From contig NZ_JARGEN010000029.1 in NCBI RefSeq assembly GCF_029211125.1, positions 1 through 64,000 of the forward strand: 64,000 bases of DNA, read 5' to 3'. The notes below the pieces were generated by a model that was not told the DNA's origin, ran no database searches, and was given only the letters and a program-made list of their open reading frames with translations. Origin of the DNA: Curvibacter soli (GTDB taxonomy: Bacteria; Pseudomonadota; Gammaproteobacteria; Burkholderiales; Burkholderiaceae_C). Positions 23,913 to 64,000 of the stretch are shown one piece after another (the stretch's first letter is position 1; each line of letters starts with the position of its first letter). The position numbers and the translations under genes are program-made.

Positions 23913-25076
23913 ATGACCCACCGCAACCCTCCCCGGCTGCTGCGCGCCCTGGCCCTGCTGGCCGCCGCCGTTGCACTGCCGGGCTGCGCCGACCTGGGCT
24001 ACTACGCGCAGTCGGTGCGCGGCCACCTGCAACTGATGGGCGCGGCGCGGCCCGTGGAGGACTGGATCGCCCGCCCCGACACCCCCGCGGCGCTGCGCGC
24101 GCGGCTGGAGCTGGCGCAGCGTGCCCGGGCCTTCGCCGTGGCCGAGTTGGGCCTGCCCGACAACGCCAGCTACCACCGCTACGCCGACCTGGGCCGCCGC
24201 GCCGCCGTGTGGAACGTGGTGGCCGCCCCACCGCTGTCGCTCACGCTGCACACCTGGTGCTTCCCGGTCACGGGCTGCATCGGCTATCGCGGCTACTTCG
24301 ACGAGGACGGCGCCCGCGCCGAGGCCGCAAGCCTGGCCGCGCAGGGGCTGGAGACCAGCGTCTACGGCGTGCCCGCCTATTCCACGCTGGGCTGGATGAA
24401 CTGGGCCGGCGGCGACCCGCTGCTCAACACCTTCGTCGGCTATCCCGAGGGCGATTTCGTGCGCCTGTTGTTCCACGAGATGGCGCACCAGGTGGTGTAT
24501 GCCAGCGGCGATACGGTGTTCAACGAATCGTTCGCCACGGCGGTGGAGCGCATCGGCGGGCAGCGCTGGCTGGACACGCAGGCCAGCGCGACGGCGCGCG
24601 AGGCGTCGGCGCGGGCGCAGACGCGCCGCGCCGCGTTCCGTGCGCTGACGCGCGAGACGCGCGTGCGGCTGGTGCATATTTATGAACAAAAAACGGCTCC
24701 AGCGCTTGATATACCTGCGGTAGCAGCTATGAAAAACGAAGCAATGCAGACGTTCCGCGAGCGCTACGCAGCCCTGCGCGAGCGCTGGCTGACCGAGCCC
24801 GGCATGCAGGGCGGCGCGGACGCCGCGGCGCTGGCGGGCTACGACACCTGGGTGGCGCGCGCCAACAACGCGGCCTTCGGCGCGCTGGCCGCCTACGACG
24901 ACCTGGTGCCCGCGTTCGAGGCGCTGTTCGCGCGGGAAGGCTCGGACTGGCCGCGCTTCTACGCGGCGGTGCGCGCGCTGGCCAGGCAGCCCAGGGACGA
25001 ACGCCACGCGGCGCTCGATGCGCTCATGGCGCCGCCGCCGGCTAGTGCAGTGTTCGATGCTTGGCGGCACCAATAA
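23913..25076 (+). CDS. zinc peptidase lipoprotein, aminopeptidase family (PF10023-like), 3' end altered
   Basis: A 387-residue protein with a lipoprotein signal (lipobox LPGC at about residues 22-25). The metallopeptidase motif is HEMAHQ, with downstream NESFATAVE supplying the third ligand. Residues 258-276 (KTAPALDIPAVAAMKNEA) are encoded by a family C repeat in frame. The last residues, ASAVFDAWRHQ, are encoded by the left end of repeat B2, so the original C-terminus was replaced. Catalytic residues lie well before both changes, so activity is plausible. Confidence 0.85.
   Translation: MTHRNPPRLLRALALLAAAVALPGCADLGYYAQSVRGHLQLMGAARPVEDWIARPDTPAALRARLELAQRARAFAVAELGLPDNASYHRYADLGRRAAVWNVVAAPPLSLTLHTWCFPVTGCIGYRGYFDEDGARAEAASLAAQGLETSVYGVPAYSTLGWMNWAGGDPLLNTFVGYPEGDFVRLLFHEMAHQVVYASGDTVFNESFATAVERIGGQRWLDTQASATAREASARAQTRRAAFRALTRETRVRLVHIYEQKTAPALDIPAVAAMKNEAMQTFRERYAALRERWLTEPGMQGGADAAALAGYDTWVARANNAAFGALAAYDDLVPAFEALFAREGSDWPRFYAAVRALARQPRDERHAALDALMAPPPASAVFDAWRHQ
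24685..24738 (+). repeat. family C repeat, copy C6, in frame inside the peptidase gene
   Basis: AAAAAACGGCTCCAGCGCTT, an AT-rich middle, TGCGG and GCAGCTATGAAAAA match the family consensus closely. The copy keeps the reading frame open. Confidence 0.8.
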
Positions 25077-25446
25077 ACCTAGAAACGGCAGTTGACCGCT
25101 TCGCATCCCTTGCCAGGCCGCATGAAATCGAGCGTTGACGGCTTCGATGGGGTTCGCCTCGTGGGTGAGAGCGCTATGCACCTGCCAGCACCGCGCTCGG
25201 CGCGCCATGCGGCGTTGCTCCTCCTTGCGGGCAGTAGCCCGCCGCGTCGTCGCGCCTTGCCTGGCACCCCGATCACGGCACCGGCAGGCGCATCCAACTG
25301 CCGTTTCCAGGATAAAAGCGATGCGTTTTGGCGCAGGGCAAGGCGCAAACCACAGCGATAGCCGTCGCTATCGCGAGGATTTGCAGCGCCGCCATGCGGC
25401 AAAAGGCGCGGTTTTATGTGCTGCTTGGCGTTGAACACTGCATTAG
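25042..25446 (+). repeat. family B element, copy B2, interrupted by element A2
   Basis: The left end CTAGTGCAGTGTTCGATGC is at 25042 and the right end GTTGAACACTGCATTAG finishes at 25446. Removing A2 and one copy of its 5-bp duplication leaves 166 bp, the same length as B3. The left end supplies the C-terminus and TAA stop of the peptidase; the right end supplies the stop of the acyl-CoA-binding protein. This accounts for the 366-bp gap 25077-25442. Confidence 0.88.
25078..25311 (-). repeat. family A element, copy A2 (234 bp), nested in B2
   Basis: The ends are CCTAGAAACGGCAGTTG and CAACTGCCGTTTCCAGG. The element is flanked on both sides by ATAAA, and the uninterrupted B3 copy has a single ATGAA at that site. 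The inside matches A1 in reverse orientation. Confidence 0.92.
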
Positions 25447-55302: not shown

Positions 55303-56046
55303 TCAGTTCTCCAGCGCTACGCCGGGCGCGTCATGGCTGTGCCGTGCCAGATACACCTCGTGCAGCGTGATCTTGCGCACCTCGGCCTTGCTGCCGCCGA
55401 TGTGCGCAGTCAACAGCCGGCAGGCTTCGTCGCCGCGTTTTGCCAGCACCGCGCGCAGGATGCGGGCATGCTCCTCGTAGGTTGCGTCCACACGCGGGCG
55501 CTTGGTGAAGTCAAGCCGGCGGATGATGCGGATGCGCTCGGTCACATCGCGGTGCACGCGCGCCATTTCGGCGTTGCCTGCGGCAACCACCAGCGTGCAG
55601 TGGAACTCTTCATCCCAAGCGCCCACCTGCACCATATCCTGGCTGCGCTCGCTCTCATCAATCAACCAGATGGACGACAGGCCGTCGAGCGCCGCACGGT
55701 CAACGCCCGGCGCGGGCGCGCACAGCCGCCGCACGGCCTCGGTTTCAAGCACCGTGCGCAGGTCGTAGAGCTGGTCGAACTGGTCGAAGTCGAATGGCAG
55801 CACGCGCCAGCCGCTGCGGTAGAGCACCTCGACGAAACCCTCCTGCTGAAGCCGGTAGAGCGCCTGGCGCACGGGTGTGCGCGATACAGACAGCCGCTCA
55901 CAGATCTCGCCCTCGGTGAAGCGATCTCCGGGCACGAGGCGGAAGTCGGCGATGTCCCGCTTGAGCAGTTCGTACACGCCCTCGGCGCGGGAGCGGCGCG
56001 CGGCGGGCGGCGCGGCGGCAGGCGGCGGGGAAACAACAGAAGGCAT
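55303..56046 (-). CDS. GntR-family regulator, FCD (FadR) subfamily
   Basis: A 247-residue regulator with N-terminal winged helix (VYELLKRDIADFRLVPGDRF, SVSRTPVRQALYRLQQEGF) and an FCD ligand domain (LYDLRTVLETEAVRRLC, WDEEFHCTLVVAAGNAEMAR). It is the last gene of the ureide operon and the likely repressor of it. A palindrome fitting such a regulator lies at 63485-63498, upstream of the binding-protein gene. Confidence 0.88.
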   Translation of the reverse strand: MPSVVSPPPAAAPPAARRSRAEGVYELLKRDIADFRLVPGDRFTEGEICERLSVSRTPVRQALYRLQQEGFVEVLYRSGWRVLPFDFDQFDQLYDLRTVLETEAVRRLCAPAPGVDRAALDGLSSIWLIDESERSQDMVQVGAWDEEFHCTLVVAAGNAEMARVHRDVTERIRIIRRLDFTKRPRVDATYEEHARILRAVLAKRGDEACRLLTAHIGGSKAEVRKITLHEVYLARHSHDAPGVALEN

Positions 56047-56069
56047 GGATTTGGTCACGGTCTCCGATA

Positions 56070-56753
56070 TTAGAGCGTGTTGCGCCCCGGCAAACCCGCC
56101 AATGCCCGCAGCAAGGCCGCCGATGGTGCCGTCCAACCCACGATGCCGCCCTGTGCGCGCACCATCTCCAGCGTACTGGCCTTGAAGGCTGGAAAGTAGC
56201 TCTCGGTGCAATCCTCCAGCAGCAGGCATTCGTAGCCACGGTCGTTGGCCTCGCGCATGGAGGTCTGCACGCAGACTTCGGTGGTCACCCCGCCCAACAG
56301 CAGATGCGTGATGCGACGCGCCTGCAGCCATTCGTGCAAGCCCGTGGCGTAGAAGGCGCCCTTGCCGGGTTTGTCGATCACCCGCTCGCCCGGCATGGGC
56401 GCCAGCGCGTCGATGATCTGGTTGCCCGGCTCGCCCGCGACAAGGATGCGCCCCATCGGCCCGACGTCGCCGATGCGCAGGCTGGGGTTGCCACGGTTGC
56501 GCTTGGCGGGCGGGCAGTCCGACAGGTCGGGCTGGTGCGCCTCGCGCGTGTGCACCACCGCGCCGCCCACCTGGCGCCATGCGGCCAGCACGGCCTGCAT
56601 GGCTGGCACGATGGCCTCGAGCAGGCGCACGTCGTTGCCCAGCGCCGCGCCAAAACCGCCGGGCTCGATGAAGTCGCGTTGCATGTCGATCAGCACCAGC
56701 GCCGTGTGTGCCGTATCGAACACATAGGGGAAGGGGTTGGCATCCATCTGCAT
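56070..56753 (-). CDS. isochorismatase-like cysteine hydrolase 1 (possibly triuret hydrolase-like)
   Basis: A 227-residue hydrolase. The catalytic triad is visible as Asp in [20 protein letters not shown], Lys in [15 protein letters not shown] and Cys in [20 protein letters not shown]. It is a clear paralogue of the biuret-hydrolase-like gene at 58375. In ureide-degrading bacteria, triuret and biuret hydrolases are paired members of this family, so a triuret or related substrate is possible. The exact specificity is inference. Confidence 0.75.
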
Positions 56754-56776
56754 GGTGTTTCTCGTTGGTTGCGGTG

Positions 56777-58351
56777 TCAATGCTGCCCGCCGCCCATGTG
56801 GGCGCCCAGCACCTGCCGGTCTGCGGACGCGGCGGCGGTTTCGTACACCACGCGGCCTTCGCTCATCACGATGATGCGGTCCGACAGCTCCAGCAGTTCG
56901 TCCAGGTCTTCGCTGACCAGCAGTACCGCTCCACCCTTGTCGCGCACCTGCACGATGCGCGTGTGGATTTCGGCCACAGCGGCGAAATCCAGCCCGAACA
57001 CGGGATTGGCGGCGATCAGCACGTTGATGTCGCCAGCCAGCTCGCGTGCCAGCACCGCACGCTGCACGTTGCCCCCGGACAGGCTGCGGATGGGCGCGTC
57101 CTCGCCCTGGGTCTTGATGCCGTACTCGGCAATCCAGCGACGCGCGCGGCTGCGCCACTGGCCAAAGTGCAGCAGCCCCCACGATGCGAGCGGCGGCTGG
57201 TCGAAGTCGCGCAGCGCCATGTTCTCGGCCACGCTCAGGTCGCCCACGCAGGCATTGCGCAGTGGCTCTTCAGGCAAGCTGCGCACCCGCAGCGTGCGGT
57301 TTTCGGCGCGCCGCGCCGCATAGGGCCGGCCCATCACACGCACCTGCCCGGCAGCGCGCGGGCGCTGGCCCACCAGGGACTCCACCAGTTCGCGCTGGCC
57401 GTTGCCCGACACGCCGGCCACGCCCAGTATTTCGCCGGGGCGCACGGACAGGCTGAGGCCCTGCACGGCCAGCGTGCCGCGGTCGCCCGGCGCGCTCAAC
57501 CCCCGCACGTCGAGTACGGCGGCCGCGCCGTCCGCTATGTCATCGATAGCTGCATGCCAAGGTTTTACGTGCGCTTGCGCCTGATTTTGCTTTGAGTCTT
57601 CGCCCATCATGGCGCGCGCCAGCCGCTGCGGGTCGGTATCGGCCACATGGGCATGGTGCACGGCCCTGCCGCGGCGCAATACCGTCACGCTGTCGGCATA
57701 GGCCATCACTTCGCGGAACTTGTGGGTGATGATGAGCACGGTGCAGTGGCCGCTGCGGGCGAAGTCGCGTACATGGCCCAGCACCTCGTCGGCCTCCTGG
57801 GGCGTCAGCACCGAGGTCGGCTCGTCAAGAATCAATAGGCGCGGCCTCAGGTAGAGCTGTTTGAGCAGTTCGAGCTTCTGCTTCTCGCCCGCCGCCAGCG
57901 CCGATGGCGTTGCATCGAGGTCGAGGCTGAACGGCGTGGTGGCCAGGAAGCGCTTGAGGCCGGCGCGCTGCGCCTTCCAGTCGATCAGCGCGGGCGTTTT
58001 ACCGCCCGCCAGCAGCAGGTTTTCAGCCACCGTCATCCCAGGCGCCAGCGTGAAGTGCTGGTAAACCATGCCGATGCCTAGCTGCCGCGCCACGACGGGG
58101 TTGTCGATGTCCCGTTCACGCCCGTCGATCAGGATGCTGCCCTCCTCCGGGCGCTGAAAACCCGCCACGCACTTCACCAGCGTGCTTTTGCCGGCGCCGT
58201 TTTCGCCCAGCAATGCATGCACCGTTCCTGGCTCTACGTGCATGCTCACATGGTCCAGGGCGGTGAAGCCGCCGAAGCGCTTGGTCAGCGCGTAGGTGTC
58301 GAGCGCCAGGGCGCCCGTGGCGGACGACGGCGGGGTGACGGGGGCAATCAT
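56777..58351 (-). CDS. ABC importer ATPase, BMP/nucleoside type (two fused domains)
   Basis: A 524-residue protein with two nucleotide-binding domains. The first has Walker [21 protein letters not shown], signature [16 protein letters not shown], Walker [14 protein letters not shown] and switch ITHKF. The second has the altered Walker [15 protein letters not shown] with signature [18 protein letters not shown], and ANPVFGLD in place of a normal Walker B, as in this subfamily. The linker, residues 252-273, comes from a family C repeat. It powers the permeases at 60114 and 61034. Confidence 0.9.
57534..57596 (-). repeat. family C repeat, copy C9, in frame inside the ABC ATPase
   Basis: On the minus strand AAAATCAGGCGCAAGCGCAC, a variable middle and GCATGCAGCTATCGATG follow the family order. 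It encodes [19 protein letters not shown], the linker between the two ATPase domains. Confidence 0.7.
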
Positions 58352-58374
58352 GGGCGCACGCTCCTTTCAGCCTC

Positions 58375-59091
58375 TCAGGCCAGGGCCTCGATCAGCGCCG
58401 TGGAGGGCGCATGCGCGCCGAACACGCCGCCCTGCATGGTGATCATCTTCAGCGCCGCCAGGTGGTTGCCGGGATCGGTGGCCGCGGTGCAGTCCGACAG
58501 CAGCAGGCACTCGAAACCACGGTCGTTGGCGTCGCGCATGGTGGTGTGCACGCATACGTCGGTGGTGATGCCGGCGAGCACGATGTTTTCTATCCCGCGC
58601 AGGCGCAGCACCATCTCCAGGTCGGTGGCATAGAACGAGCCCTTGCCGGGCTTGTCGATGACCACTTCGCCAGGCAGCGGGGCCAGCTCGGGGATGATTT
58701 CCCAGCCGGGCTCGCCGCGCACCAGGATGCGCCCGCAGGGGCCAGCGTCGCCAATGCCCAGTCCGTGCTTGCCTATCTGCCTTGAACGCCAGCGCTTGTT
58801 GGCCGGCAGATCCGACAGGTCTGGCCTGTGGCCCTCGCGGGTATGGATGATGGCGTAGCCCAGCCGGCGCAGCAGGGTCAGCAGGCGGCCAATCGGCGCA
58901 ATGGGCGCCTGCGTGAGCGACAGGTCGTAACCCATCACGTCCACATAGCCGCCTTTGCCACAGAAGTCGGTCTGCATGTCGATCACGATCAGCGCGGTGT
59001 TGTCGGGACGCAGCGCGCCGTTGTAAGGCCATGAATAGGGATTGGCGGCGACGTGGCGTTCAGCGGTGTTGGCGGTCATGGCGCGGCTCAT
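58375..59091 (-). CDS. biuH: isochorismatase-like cysteine hydrolase 2, biuret amidohydrolase type
   Basis: A 238-residue hydrolase. [60 protein letters not shown] and [20 protein letters not shown] match, as I remember it, the biuret hydrolase of rhizobia closely. Asp in IDMQ, Lys in DKPGKGSF and Cys in DVCVHT form the triad. Biuret hydrolases release ammonia and allophanate. Its ATG overlaps the amidase stop (ATGA), so the two are translationally coupled; a second ATG lies four codons in. Confidence 0.75.
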
Positions 59092-60080
59092 CCTGCGTAG
59101 TCGCGTTCGGGCGGCGCGAAGCCGCAGCCGGTGCCATCCTTCACCTTCACGTCGTCGCTCCACGGCAGCCGGTAGCGGCCGGCCGCCATGTCGTGCATGT
59201 AGGTGTAGGGGCAGTCCTGTGCGCCGCCCTTCACCGCCACATAGCCGCGGTGGTAGAGCTGGTAGATGTTGTTTTCCACGCCCCAGCCGGTGCGCGCCTC
59301 GCGCACCAGGTCGGGCCGCAGCTCGGCGGTGATGATCTCGTCCACGCGCCCGCCCCCCTCCACCAGCAGCGTACCGTCGAAGTTGCAGAACATGCCCTCG
59401 CCCATCGAGTCGAAGCTGCCATCGCTGCCGCACATGCACACGCTCGCGGTGTACGCGAGGTTGCAGAAGGCGTTGGCCTGGTTGGTGATCTTCCAGGCAT
59501 GGCGTATCGGTGCGGTGTAGCCGGCGGTACGCAGGATGATCTCGGCGCCCTTGTATGCCGCCTCGCGCGCCATCTCGGGGAACATGCCATCGTGGCAGAT
59601 GATGAGCGAGAGCCGGCTGCCGTTGGGGCCGTCGCACACCGGCACGCCAAGGTTGCCGGGCTCCCAGGGCTCGACCGGCACCCACGGATGCAGCTTGCGG
59701 TAATACAGCCTGACGGCGCCCTGGTCGTCGATGATCAGGCCGCTGTTGTAGGGGTTGCCGCCAGGGTTGGCCTCCATGATGGAGAAGCAGCCCCAGATGC
59801 GGTGCGCGACGCAGGCCGCCTTGAAGGCCGCCACCTCGGGCCCGTCGAGCGTGCACATGATCTCGGGATTCGTGTCCATCGAGAGGCCGTGCAGCGCGTA
59901 CTCGGGAAACACCACGAGATCCATGGTCGACTGGTTGCGGCGCGCCTTGCCGACCAGTTCGCAGATGCGCGCGGTCTGCGCCGCGAGGTCGGCAGGTGTC
60001 TTCACGCTGGGCAGTTGCAACTGCACCAGGCCGATGACGACGCCCTGCGCCGATTTGTTGAGTCCGCCGAGACCGCTCAT
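59088..60080 (-). CDS. amiF: nitrilase-superfamily amidase, formamidase (AmiF) type
   Basis: A 330-residue carbon-nitrogen hydrolase with triad Glu in [13 protein letters not shown], Lys in [18 protein letters not shown] and Cys in [40 protein letters not shown] and [20 protein letters not shown] match formamidases over the whole length. It releases ammonia from formamide or a related small amide. In this operon it may act on a fragment of the imported ureide. Confidence 0.78.
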
Positions 60081-60113
60081 GGGCGGACCTCCAAGGAAAC
60101 GAAATGCATGGGA

Positions 60114-61037
60114 TCAACTCCTTGTCGAAGAAAGCTCGCCCGGGCTGCCCACGGCCACCTTGCCCGGCCTACAGGTCAGCACCAGGATCAGCAGCGTCAG
60201 CACATACGGCACCGTGTTGAACAGGTGGTAGCCCCAGGCAATGCCAATGCTCTGCAACGCCGGCCCCACCGCCCCCGCGCCGCCAAACAGCAGCGCCGCG
60301 CCCATGCAGCGCAAGGGGCTCCAGCGCGCGAAGATCACCAGCGCCACGGCGATCAGCCCCTGGCCGCTGGAGATACCTTCGTTCCAGCTTCCGGGGTAGA
60401 ACAGCGTGAGCGATGCCCCACCCAGCCCCGCGATGGCGCCGCCCGCCGTCGTGGCCGCGATGCGGATGCCCGCCACCGAATACCCCAGCGCACGGGTGGC
60501 GTCTGCAGAATCCCCGGCCAGGCGCACCAGCAAGCCTGCGCGGGTACGCGCAAAACCCCACCACAGCGCCAGCGCCAGCATCAGGCCGATGGGCACCAGC
60601 ACGTTCACCTGCAAGGCCGCGCGCACGGCGGCATTGCTGCTCCAGTCGGCCAGCGCGATGGACGGCAACTGCGGGGCCTGCGGCTGGATCAGCGGCTTGC
60701 CCAGATAGAACGCCAGGCCCGTGCCCAGCAGCATGAGCGCGATGCCCGTGGCCACGTCGTTGACGCGCGGCAGCGAACACAGCACGCCGTGCAGCGCGGC
60801 CAGCAATGCGCCAGCCAACGCGCCCGCCAGCACGCCGACCCAGGCCGAGCCGCTCCAGTAAGCGCCACCGAACGCGGCCATGGCCGACAGCACCAATACG
60901 CCCTCCAGCCCCAGGTTGATGCGGCCCGACTTTTCCGTCAGGCATTCGCCCAGACTCACGAACAGGAAAGGGGTTCCCACACGCAGCGCTCCGCCGACGA
61001 TGGCGGCGGCGAAGGCAATCCACTGGTCGGCGCTCAT
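60114..61037 (-). CDS. ABC permease, BMP/nucleoside type, subunit 2
   Basis: A 307-residue permease (BPD_transp_2) with about eight to ten helices. Motifs are [59 protein letters not shown] and [20 protein letters not shown]. It starts in an ATGA overlap with subunit 1. The amidase gene follows 33 nt downstream. Confidence 0.9.
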
Positions 61038-62122
61038 GGCGTTCCCTCCTGCGCCTGTTGCCGCACGGGCGCTGACACGGCCCGCAGCCTGGCACGCACG
61101 GCTTTCCAGTCCACCGTGCGCAAGGCCTCGCTTGCCAGGATCAGCACGAACGCGATGCCTTGCAGCACCTGCACCGACGCATCCGGCAGGCCCAGCCGGC
61201 GTTGCAGCAGGCTGCCCGCCGCACCAAAGCCGCCGAACAAAATGGCCACCGGAATGACCGCAAACGGGTTTTGCCTGGCAATGAACGCCACCAGGATGCC
61301 CGCATAGCCATAGCCCGCGATCAGCGATGCATTGGCGTTGGTCTGTACCGCCGCCACCTCCACCGCACCCGCCAGCCCGGCACAGGCACCGCCCAACCCG
61401 CAGGCCAGCAGCACCAGCCGCGACGCAGGCAGCCCCACCAGTTGCGCGGTGCGCGGGTTGCCGCCCACGACACGCACGGCAAAGCCCGATGCCGTCCATT
61501 GCAGCCAGAGCCCAAGCCCCAGGCAGACCAGGACGCCGAGCACCAGCCCCCAGTGCACGTCGGAACCCGCGATGCCGCCGATCTGCAGCCCGGCGGCCAG
61601 CGTGCGGGTGGAGGGTTTGTTCAGGCTGGCCGGGTCGCGCAACGCGCCCTCCACCCAGAACTTGAACAACCCGATAGCCACGTAGGCCAGCAGCAGGCTG
61701 CTGATGGTTTCGTTGATGCCGCGGTACTGGCGCAGCCAGCCGGCCAGCATGACCCACAACGCACCGGCCACGGCACCCGCGGCGCAGATGGCCGCGGCAC
61801 CAGCGGCATTGGCGGGCAGCGGCAGCACGTAAGGCAGCGCGGCGCAGGCCAGACCGCCCAGCACCAGCGCGCCTTCTCCGCCAATGATGATGAGGCCCGC
61901 ACGCGCCGGTATGGCCACGCACAGCGCCGTCAGCATCAGCGGTGCCGCGCGTTGCAATGTGTTCTGCCAGGAGAACCAGTCACCGAACGCGCCTTTGAAC
62001 AATACCGTCCAGGCGTCGATCGGGTTGACGCCCGCAGCCACGTAGACAAACACGCCGAATAGCAGCAACGCCGCGGCGATGGCAAGCATGGGCAGCAGGG
62101 CTGCGCGGAATACGGCGCGCAT
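61034..62122 (-). CDS. ABC permease, BMP/nucleoside type, subunit 1
   Basis: A 362-residue permease with about nine helices. Motifs are LMLTALCVAIPARAGLIIIG, GGEGALVLGGLACAALPYVL, YRGINETISSLLLAYVAIGL and VRVVGGNPRTAQLVGLPASR (coupling region). It pairs with subunit 2. It lies 28 nt downstream of the binding protein. Confidence 0.9.
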   Translation of the reverse strand: MRAVFRAALLPMLAIAAALLLFGVFVYVAAGVNPIDAWTVLFKGAFGDWFSWQNTLQRAAPLMLTALCVAIPARAGLIIIGGEGALVLGGLACAALPYVLPLPANAAGAAAICAAGAVAGALWVMLAGWLRQYRGINETISSLLLAYVAIGLFKFWVEGALRDPASLNKPSTRTLAAGLQIGGIAGSDVHWGLVLGVLVCLGLGLWLQWTASGFAVRVVGGNPRTAQLVGLPASRLVLLACGLGGACAGLAGAVEVAAVQTNANASLIAGYGYAGILVAFIARQNPFAVIPVAILFGGFGAAGSLLQRRLGLPDASVQVLQGIAFVLILASEALRTVDWKAVRARLRAVSAPVRQQAQEGTP

Positions 62123-62150
62123 GGCGGCGCAAACTGGGCCAGCCGGGCAA

Positions 62151-63263
62151 TCAGCCGATCGAGCCTTGCACGCCCTCGACCAGGTAGTTCATCTTTTCCA
62201 GCTCCAGGTCGGTCTGCTTGTGCACCTTGCCCGCAGCGATGACTTCCTTGCCCTTGTTGTCCTTGAGCGGGCCCTTGAAGATGTCGAAGCCGCCTGCAAG
62301 CATCTTGGCCTTGATGTCGTCGGCATTCTTCTTGGCCGCGTCGCTGACCGCTGGGCCATAAGCGGAGGTTTTCACGTAGCCCGCCTTCAGGCCCCCGCGC
62401 AGGAAGTTCGGATGGGGCTTGCCGGCCTGGGCCGCCTCGACAACCGTCTTGTAGGCCGTAAGCCAATTCCATTCCGCTCCTGTGAGGTAGGCCTGCGGAG
62501 CCAGCTTGGCCTGGCTTGCGTGGTAGCCGCAGACCATCTTGCCGCGTTTGGCCGCGGTTTCGACAATGACCTTGGGGCCGTCGACGTGCATGGTGAACAC
62601 GTCGCAGCCCTGGTCGGCCAGGCTGTTGGTGGCCTCGGCCTCCTTCACGGCCATGGACCAGTCGCCGGTGAAGATCACGCTGCAAGTGATGCCCGGCTTG
62701 ACCGAGCGTGCGCCCATGGTGAAGGCGTTGATGTTGCGCAGAACCTGCGGGATCGGCTTGGCGGCCACAAAGGCGATCTTGTTGCTCTTGGTCATGTGGC
62801 CCGCGACCACGCCATTCAGGTACTGGCATTCTTCGATGTAGCCGAAGAAGCTGCCCACGTTCTTGGGCATGCCTTCGGTCCACAGGCCGCCACAGTGCGA
62901 AAAGCGCACGTCGGGATACTTGGGCGCCAGCGCCAGGACATGCGGGTCGAAATAGCCGAACGAGGTAGGAAACAGCAGCGAAGCGCCGTCCTGCGCGATC
63001 ATGCCGGTCATGGTCTTTTGCACGGCCACGGTTTCAGGCACGTTTTCTTCCTCGACCACCTTCACGCCGGGCATCTTCTTGAGTTCCGCCGCCGCCTGGG
63101 CCTGCGCCTGGTTGTAGCCGTAGTCGTCGCGCGGGCCGACGTAGATCACCCCCACCGTCAACGGCTTCTGCGCCCGCGCCAGCGGACTGAGCACACCCAG
63201 CGTGCCAGCAGCGCCAAGCACGGCCAAGGATTTGAGGGATTCGCGGCGATTGAACTGGCTCAT
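62151..63263 (-). CDS. BMP-family ABC substrate-binding protein
   Basis: A 370-residue Bmp (PnrA-like) binding protein with a twin-arginine-type signal (FNRRESLKSLAVLGAAGTLG, ending LARAQ). The mature part has VGVIYVGPRDDYGYNQAQAQ, FGYFDPHVLALAPKYPDVRF and KIAFVAAKPIPQVLRNINAF. Bmp proteins bind nucleosides, purines or similar nitrogen compounds. The ATG at 63263 is chosen because GGAG lies 8 nt upstream; an ATG four codons earlier has no such site. Confidence 0.9.
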   Translation of the reverse strand: MSQFNRRESLKSLAVLGAAGTLGVLSPLARAQKPLTVGVIYVGPRDDYGYNQAQAQAAAELKKMPGVKVVEEENVPETVAVQKTMTGMIAQDGASLLFPTSFGYFDPHVLALAPKYPDVRFSHCGGLWTEGMPKNVGSFFGYIEECQYLNGVVAGHMTKSNKIAFVAAKPIPQVLRNINAFTMGARSVKPGITCSVIFTGDWSMAVKEAEATNSLADQGCDVFTMHVDGPKVIVETAAKRGKMVCGYHASQAKLAPQAYLTGAEWNWLTAYKTVVEAAQAGKPHPNFLRGGLKAGYVKTSAYGPAVSDAAKKNADDIKAKMLAGGFDIFKGPLKDNKGKEVIAAGKVHKQTDLELEKMNYLVEGVQGSIG

Positions 63264-63317
63264 GGGGCGCTCCATTGGTGAGGTGGTATCTAAATCACAG
63301 GAAAATCGCAGGATCGT

Positions 63318-63483
63318 CTAGTGCAGTGTTCGATGCTTGGCGGCACAAATGAAAGCGATGCGTTTTGGCGCAGGGCAAGGCGCAAACCACAGCGATAGCC
63401 GTAGCTATCGCGAGGATTTGCAACGCCGCCATGCGTCAAAAGGCGCGGTTTCATGTGCTGCTTAGCGTTGAACACTGCACTAG
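63318..63483 (+). repeat. family B element, complete copy B3 (166 bp)
   Basis: It runs from CTAGTGCAGTGTTCGATGC to GTTGAACACTGCACTAG. The outer 14 bp are perfectly inverted and about 25 of 30 end bases pair. An internal GCGATAGC/GCTATCGC hairpin is present. Counting only one side of the TA, the ends are GTGCAGTGTTC, flanked by TA duplications at a C-TA-G site. It lies in the untranslated leader between the candidate operator and the binding-protein gene. Confidence 0.88.
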
Positions 63484-63484
63484 G

Positions 63485-63498
63485 ATACAAGTTTGTAT
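63485..63498. promoter_or_regulatory. candidate GntR/FCD operator of the ureide operon
   Basis: ATACAA-GT-TTGTAT is a perfect inverted repeat, and GTAT..ATAC half-sites continue to 63512. The AT-rich short palindrome is the type bound by FCD-subfamily GntR proteins. It lies between hpxZ-like and the transporter genes, about 220 bp upstream of the binding-protein start. Confidence 0.4.
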
Positions 63499-63541
63499 GC
63501 ACAAAACATACCAACGAAAAAACGTCCGCCAGCGACGGATT

Positions 63542-63928
63542 TCAGTCCAACAGGCTCACATGCGCGGCCACGACGCGCCAGCCTTGTGCAGTGCGCATCC
63601 AGGTCTGGCTTTGTCGCCCTGTTTTAGTGCTGCCCTGGCGCTGGAATTCGCAGTTGGCGGTAGCGAAGTCACGTCCATAGGTGGTAATCACCACGCGCAG
63701 CAACTGGCGCATCAGGCCCTGCGATGGCCTTGCGGCGCGGAAGGCTGCGATCGCGTCATGCCCGTACAAGTTTTCGGTTGCGCCATAGCGCAGCGTGTGC
63801 GGACTGTTCCAGAACAGTTCATCGAGCACTTCCACCTTGTTGTGGACCAGCGCGTCTTCGTACCGGTCGAAAGCTGCGCGCACTTCCCCAACGATTTCCG
63901 ACAGATTGATTGCGTTGGCAGTGTGCAT
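63542..63928 (-). CDS. HpxZ/AtzH family protein (DUF3225)
   Basis: A 128-residue SnoaL-like fold protein: [57 protein letters not shown] and [20 protein letters not shown]. Members are encoded next to AtzE/HpxW-type amidases in cyanurate, oxalurate and ureide degradation, where AtzH acts on a carboxylated urea intermediate. It starts 5 nt after the amidase stop, so the two are co-transcribed. Confidence 0.82.
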
Positions 63929-63933
63929 GGTGC

Positions 63934-64000
63934 TCAGGCGAGGGCAGCAATGGGCGCCCGCGTGACCCCCGTGGCTTCCAGCTCTGCGGCCACGCGCAAT
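63934..64000 (-). CDS. C-terminal end of an AtzE-type amidase (truncated by the window)
   Basis: The last 22 codons read [20 protein letters not shown] and end in TGA. The sequence and its position before the HpxZ/AtzH gene fit the C-terminus of an amidase-signature enzyme of the AtzE group. The rest lies beyond the window, so identity rests mainly on context. Confidence 0.5.

Follow-up and report, generated by a model that had tools for sequence, protein, structure and literature searches.

A trtA-biuH-atzF gene set for the breakdown of triuret, which contaminates the urea fertiliser applied to fields in large quantities, has been described in Herbaspirillum sp. BH-1, in a paper that also names a decarboxylase, TrtB (PMC7948467). 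Three further systems come close to the locus treated here: the atzDGEHF genes of Pseudomonas sp. ADP with atzRSTUVW (PMC6834077, PMC6219798), clusters of the type atzF-ABC-atzG-atzE-atzH-ABC-amidase in Comamonadaceae and other Burkholderiales, where ABC denotes an ATP-binding cassette importer (PMC6219798), and biuH-trtA-atzF-trtB-bmpA-nupABC contigs of ammonia oxidisers (PMC12625717). Here we analyse a 64,000-base stretch of Curvibacter soli DNA (the window), which comprises bases 1-64000 of contig NZ_JARGEN010000029.1 (C22, 81,270 bases), and the operon-like gene cluster that begins at base 55303 and runs off its end. With a probability of roughly 0.87, we read this part of the window as the downstream portion of a locus for the catabolism of triuret and biuret, from uptake to ammonia. 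The original prediction, made from the window alone, had guessed biuret or triuret as substrate, and the guess has gained support on two counts: the two hydrolases concerned, TrtA and BiuH, each carry all six of their specificity residues, and atzE, atzG and atzF follow past base 64000, exactly where it had proposed to look, on the same strand and together with a second importer. Because these three genes are encoded there, the route to ammonia is complete.

All of the genes that the original prediction had named were found as intact minus-strand frames between 55303 and a point past 64000. In the direction of transcription the order is atzF, a NitT/TauT importer, atzG, atzE, atzH, a BMP protein, two permeases, amiF, biuH, the BMP ATPase, trtA and gntR. 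The features are as follows, with positions beyond the window given as contig coordinates.

55303-56046, minus strand: GntR/FCD-type transcriptional regulator, encoded at the end of the unit (above the Pfam cut-offs for GntR, with 62.8 bits, and for FCD, with 72.7 bits)
56070-56753, minus strand: predicted TrtA, triuret hydrolase, an isochorismatase-like cysteine hydrolase (PDB 6xix, E=3.3e-99; residue test)
56777-58351, minus strand: ATPase of a BMP-type ABC importer, nupA-like, with biuH and trtA as its neighbours (intact frame of 524 residues)
58375-59079 (alternative ATG at 59091), minus strand: predicted BiuH, biuret hydrolase (NCBIfam BiuH equivalog; PDB 6azo, E=1.6e-116)
59088-60080, minus strand: AmiF-type formamidase of the nitrilase superfamily, an optional member of the unit (NCBIfam formamidase equivalog; PDB 5g3o, E=1.2e-111)
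60114-61037, minus strand: BMP-type importer permease B (intact frame of 307 residues)
61034-62122, minus strand: BMP-type importer permease A (intact frame of 362 residues)
62151-63275, minus strand: BMP-type substrate-binding protein (Pfam Bmp 132.8 bits; PDB AtzT 6pi5, E=6.3e-60)
63318-63483, no strand: dispersed inverted-repeat element of 166 bases, outside the pathway, with CTAGTGCAGTGTTC at both ends
63542-63928, minus strand: AtzH (HpxZ/DUF3225; NCBIfam HpxZ 205.3 over a cut-off of 135; Pfam AtzH-like 199.1; PDB AtzH 6bjt, E=3.1e-50)
C22:63934-65358, minus strand: AtzE, predicted 1-carboxybiuret hydrolase, of which the window holds the C-terminal end, 63934-64000 (NCBIfam 695.1 over 461; PDB 6c62, E=9.3e-170)
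C22:65355-65561, minus strand: AtzG, 68 residues (AtzG-like Pfam 43.4 over 24)
C22:65739 to about 68452, minus strand: NitT/TauT-type ATPase, permease and binding protein (the family-library search covered the binding protein; the ATPase and permease labels come from the reading frames)
C22:68469-70193, minus strand: AtzF, allophanate hydrolase (NCBIfam 740.3 over 511)

The locus resembles each of the described systems in part. With Herbaspirillum sp. BH-1 it shares AtzF and the catalytic and discriminating residues of TrtA and BiuH, whereas here AtzE, AtzG and AtzH would also serve carboxybiuret and a formamidase is present (PMC7948467). Its order is of the same type as that of the Comamonadaceae and Burkholderiales clusters, in which the downstream "amidases" go without individual names in the passages describing them and correspond here to TrtA, BiuH and AmiF (PMC6219798). 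The ammonia-oxidiser contigs share the BMP/nup importer, biuH, trtA and atzF, and their synteny figure includes gntR, as here; the main text of that paper does not contain "formamid", and in its passages on these clusters atzE serves for reference and is not listed among their members (PMC12625717). In the main text of a further paper, PMC5806882, the word "transporter" does not occur. Pseudomonas sp. ADP has AtzE, AtzG, AtzH, AtzF and an adjoining, related BMP-type protein, AtzT (PMC6834077, PMC6219798); the locus described here differs from it in having no AtzD match, in the addition of TrtA and BiuH, and in a changed binding-protein pocket. It shows that in Comamonadaceae TrtA, BiuH and AtzEGH, known from separately described pathways, occur side by side. 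In addition, it yields two residue-level predictions, one for what an importer hitherto labelled a nucleoside transporter binds and one for a change of substrate among AtzH proteins.

The two cysteine hydrolases were assigned by identity and by discriminating residues. The product of 56070-56753 is 71.2% identical to TrtA (6xix) over 215 residues, and that of 58375-59079 is 75.1% identical to BiuH (6azo) over 225 residues. Six positions that separate TrtA from BiuH have been published, namely 35, 41, 134, 160, 187 and 205 (PMC7948467). The first protein carries F35, N41, A134, E160, Y187 and I205, the TrtA form at 6/6, and the second carries Y, Y, S, D, T and V, the BiuH form at 6/6. Equivalents of the Asp-Lys-Cys triad (D24, K129 and C162) and of E72, K132 and Q202 are kept in both. 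The NCBIfam BiuH model (NF050097, cut-off 370) accepts the 58375-59079 product at 414.5 and rejects that of 56070-56753 at 258.5. Together, these features make the predicted identities, triuret hydrolase TrtA and biuret hydrolase BiuH, well supported. TrtA is reported to have high activity on triuret and an activity about four orders of magnitude lower on biuret; for the Herbaspirillum enzyme, the values are 24 U/mg with triuret, 0.07 with formylurea and 0.0004 with biuret (PMC7948467).

We compared the locus with two sets of relatives: the best 80 of 502 stretches encoding a TrtA relative, whose titles are mostly Variovorax or other Comamonadaceae (the Comamonadaceae-type set), and an order-level set of 300 genomes, 49 of which match TrtA or BiuH at E <= 1e-40, the window's genome among them. 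Of the other 48 we drew on 39, which gave 40 regions and brought the total to 120 loci. Gene counts use a floor of 50% identity, without which weak matches enter (AtzE at 29-36%, for example), and several of the 120 loci end near trtA, where the absence of a gene means little. TrtA positions 35, 41, 160, 187 and 205 are invariant in the 80 loci, position 134 is A in 63 of them and M in the other 17, and the signature FNAEYI occurs in at least one hydrolase of every order-level locus (40/40). Among the proteins retrieved with BiuH as query, 69/74 have the BiuH letters at the same five positions and 5/74 have those of TrtA; the five are taken to be TrtA proteins picked up where BiuH is missing. 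Both these five and the variation at position 134, where one order-level BiuH has C, make the residue counts less clean.

The gene order is also conserved. Of the 120 loci, 90 hold BiuH, the ATPase and TrtA at 50% identity or more, and all 90 have them in this one order, which is more than chance. At this identity or above, the 80 Comamonadaceae-type loci contain GntR in 80 cases, the ATPase in 70, BiuH in 69, permease B in 68, permease A in 66 and the BMP protein in 64, and four more of the 80 have a divergent BMP importer (24-38% identity, counted without the floor). The original prediction had considered a BMP importer and a formamidase an unusual addition to such genes; this does not hold, since the importer is the usual partner and AmiF recurs in many loci (counts below), and both halves of the gene set already appear in published surveys. 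We also observed, in 11 of the 40 order-level loci (L123, L126-L134 and L138), a hydrolase with the TrtA signature that is accompanied, in the stretch fetched, by no further gene of this cluster passing the identity thresholds.

For the later steps, an AtzE-family amidase is encoded together with the small partner AtzG, their genes overlapping by 4 bases, and we predict that this AtzEG pair is a 1-carboxybiuret hydrolase. The closest solved proteins are 6c62 for AtzE, an entry named biuret hydrolase that we take to be AtzE of Pseudomonas sp. ADP, and 6bjt (AtzH) for AtzH. Tyr22 and Arg46 are needed for AtzH function, and its arginine-rich pocket includes Arg66 and Arg73 (PMC6219798). Equivalents of all four, and of Leu53, are kept in the window's AtzH, and Tyr22, Arg46 and Arg73 are kept in the homologues of 76/76 loci; the pocket residues Arg63, Phe94, Arg96, Gln106 and Gln108 lie outside these counts. 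A urease alpha match is found elsewhere in the genome.

In the scheme that we propose, the reactions are those published, the gene identities, specificity residues, order and missing AtzD match come from this analysis, and we infer the transport ligand, the regulation and the role of AmiF. The BMP-type ABC importer would bring in the ureide, and TrtA would convert triuret to 1-carboxybiuret with the release of one ammonia. From here two routes would be open. In one, AtzEG would release another ammonia and form 1,3-dicarboxyurea, which AtzH would carry to allophanate, as described for AtzEG and as probable for AtzH in the published work (PMC6219798). In the other, carboxybiuret would lose CO2 spontaneously, a decarboxylation with a reported half-life of about 20 minutes (PMC7948467), and BiuH would hydrolyse the resulting biuret to allophanate. 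AtzF would then turn allophanate into ammonia and CO2, and the GntR protein probably regulates the unit. BiuH and AtzH occur without AtzE in 23/120 loci (e.g. L020, L108 and L113), and AtzE and TrtA occur without BiuH, at 50% identity and within the fetched stretch, in 8/120 (L017, L058, L085, L089, L107, L109, L135 and L137), which suggests that the two carboxybiuret routes may replace each other. Three of these eight count against interchangeable routes: genomes G118 (L107), G157 (L109) and G005 (L135) have, on another contig, a second hydrolase with 50-54% identity to the window's TrtA that may be BiuH, and we hold the idea as suggestive only.

AtzH itself varies with the presence of AtzE. 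Arg66, which belongs to the residues that a published docking of 1,3-dicarboxyurea to AtzH considered (PMC6219798), is Arg in the AtzH of every locus with AtzE (39/39 plus 14/14 at order level, 53/53) and is never Arg in loci with AtzH that lack AtzE (18 plus 5 at order level, 23/23). Similarly, position 53 is Leu in 53/53 AtzE-bearing loci and is replaced in 22/23 of the AtzE-less ones. A whole-genome AtzE search (E <= 1e-60), which covered the five order-level genomes among these 23 AtzE-less loci, gave 0/5 matches, with 5/5 positive controls. Because Arg66 tracks the presence of AtzE, we predict that AtzE-less AtzH proteins may act on carboxybiuret, as the pattern suggests. Three points reduce this from proof of a substrate switch to a prediction. 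A tree of AtzH, built from few columns and with long branches, requires four changes for the absence of AtzE and four for the loss of Arg66, coinciding in 4/4 independent pairs; a sign test on four pairs gives p = 0.125, which is not significant, and at least six pairs would be needed to reach 0.05. Moreover, the five variants of Pseudomonas sp. ADP AtzH that are named as impaired do not include Arg66Ala or Arg66Lys (PMC6219798), which counts against the switch.

Loci L108 and L113 have the unit atzF-BMP-permeases-biuH-ATPase-trtA-atzH-gntR, and since no gap between matches there exceeds 188 bases, the published decarboxylase TrtB, if clusters of this type hold it, should be the AtzH-family gene. 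A broader synthesis, which we regard as tentative and on balance doubtful, would have the job of AtzH follow its partner, with 1,3-dicarboxyurea as substrate beside AtzE and 1-carboxybiuret in its absence (as TrtB); the cluster BMP proteins would be dedicated ureide importers in which Gln replaces the Glu that binds purines, and AmiF would extend the locus to formylated ureides. Within this synthesis the window's AtzH, with Arg66 and Leu53 kept, would be a protein of the AtzE type.

The importer was examined at the level of its binding pocket. AtzT, the nearest solved relative of the window's BMP protein, binds guanine through Ser97, Phe98, Glu165, Asn218 and Asn220, between Tyr45 and Trp194 (PMC6834077). 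The window's protein retains Tyr45, Ser97, Phe98, Asn169 and Trp194 and departs from AtzT at 139, 165, 218 and 220, where its Gln177, His230 and Asp232 correspond to the last three, so that the purine-binding set Glu165, Asn218 and Asn220 is absent. Gln165, His218 and Asp220 (AtzT numbering) are uniform in 64/64 cluster BMP proteins, and at order level we find Gln165 in 20/21, with one gap, and His218 and Asp220 in 21/21. For comparison we used BMP proteins encoded outside the cluster (30 of 37 BMP matches were made into loci and used). Position 165 is Gln in 1 of 18 such proteins from the same genomes and Glu in 14. Asp220 is no mark of the cluster, because all 18 have it too. Only Gln165 in combination with Tyr45 is distinctive; the one non-cluster protein with Gln165, L158 (G254:C36:126005-127012, 45% identity), shares both with the cluster proteins. 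We had considered the pocket as proof of a ureide ligand, and this is weakened by these comparisons; it appears to indicate that the ligand is not of the AtzT set rather than that it is triuret.

Several points weigh against a triuret and biuret locus. The evidence of identity comes from sequence, and the genome, in 99 contigs and 99.83% complete, could hide a gene. No TrtA model is among the NCBIfam matches, leaving the name TrtA to rest on identity and residues. The BMP pocket alone names no ligand: 3s99 has both Asp220 and His218, and of the non-cluster paralogues 18/18 share the former and 3/18 the latter. Finally, the triuret/biuret scheme does not need AmiF.

Three alternatives were weighed. 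That the locus serves a cyanuric acid (s-triazine) pathway like that of atzDGEHF in Pseudomonas sp. ADP, with the TrtA and BiuH reactions as side activities, would account for the presence of AtzE, AtzG, AtzH and AtzF and for closest structures that are AtzE-type and AtzH proteins, and another genome, G171, has an AtzD gene at a distance of 0.8 kb from its trtA. Against this, the AtzD model has no match in the genome analysed here, nor in 14 control genomes, yet matches 22/300 genomes of the order, and a TrtA with its full specificity signature also argues against such a pathway. Triuret and biuret fit better because there is no AtzD match, and we reject cyanuric acid as a substrate as highly improbable. 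The importer could instead be a purine or nucleoside importer, in which case the hydrolases would act on oxidised purine products made in the cell and triuret would not enter by it. This we consider unlikely, while giving it more weight than any other alternative: AtzT binds guanine with an affinity of about 110 nM (PMC6834077), the window's protein retains Ser97, Phe98, Asn169 and the Tyr/Trp pair that sandwiches the ring, and genes of the same kind have been called an ABC nucleoside transporter (PMC12625717), but the guanine contact Glu165 is Gln in nearly all cluster proteins as against a single one of the 18 outside the cluster, and the gene for the importer's ATPase lies between biuH and trtA in 90/90 loci.

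AmiF raises the third alternative, in which the locus would really serve a formylated ureide, for example N-formylurea, from which TrtA or BiuH would free formamide for AmiF to finish. The protein scores 567.3 against the NCBIfam model NF009803 (cut-off 406), and its Glu60, Lys129 and Cys162, which we take to be the Glu-Lys-Cys triad of AmiF, sit in the motifs FPEY, YRKL and ICHDG. By family it is a clear formamidase, predicted to hydrolyse formamide, and it is the sole clear AmiF of the genome, the other match reaching just 34% over 62 residues. It is present in 42/68 Comamonadaceae-type loci that have both permease B and BiuH, whose genes are then 1001-1493 bases apart, and in 11/21 order-level loci. 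The family assignment and the recurrence of the same neighbours favour a formylated substrate, as does the finding that Herbaspirillum TrtA is about 175 times faster on formylurea than on biuret (0.07 vs 0.0004 U/mg; PMC7948467). However, TrtA works on formylurea at just 0.3% of its level on triuret (PMC7948467), and AmiF is missing from 26/68 loci, with a spacing of 0-143 bases between permease B and BiuH, and from 10/21 at order level, so that this substrate seems improbable, though less so than cyanuric acid. Because it is present in only part of the loci, AmiF is an optional add-on of the unit. Within a triuret and biuret locus, it most likely would clear formamide or a formyl amide produced alongside; the slight activity of TrtA on formylurea is the sole support for a role on formylated ureides. 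"Biuret hydrolase" and "formamidase" were not found together in any paper searched, and the three that mention both "triuret" and "formamid" concern, by title, solar cells, prebiotic lipids and purine synthesis.

The genes are closely packed. The original prediction had noted several ATGA overlaps, of which one is clear in this range, between the two permeases (61034-61037), while the others are conditional or lie beyond the window: AmiF and BiuH overlap by 4 bases only if BiuH begins at the ATG at 59091 and not at 59079, and the 4-base atzG/atzE overlap falls just past the window at C22:65355-65358. With the starts chosen, the remaining neighbours in range are 5-33 bases apart, except for atzH and the BMP gene, whose spacing of 266 bases is the largest gap between genes from atzF to gntR. 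Rfam gave no match above gathering scores between 55000 and 64000. On the plus strand opposite atzF, a divergent unit (C22:70523-74818 and onward; L009 15523-19818) begins with a gene for an Amidohydro_2 protein, followed by frames that resemble, by labels taken from the reading frames, the parts of another NitT/TauT-type importer: a binding protein, a pair of permeases and an ATPase.

The wide spacing between atzH and the BMP gene contains the inverted-repeat element, and the same spacing is only 27-122 bases in 52/55 related loci. At least 40 near-full copies occur in the genome, including this one, a lower bound as only part of the candidates were scored, and the other 39 are 92-98% identical. 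Exact element ends were found 43 + 43 times, with none for a reversed-pattern control. The element folds as a single long hairpin (-109.5 kcal/mol) and looks like a miniature inverted-repeat transposable element. Other size classes are suggested by facing ends that lie about 405 bases apart (as at 25042-25446, one end mismatched) or 78-94 bases apart. Past the window, a lone 14-base element end lies at the end of atzF (C22:68459-68472), where its TAG serves as the stop codon of that gene.

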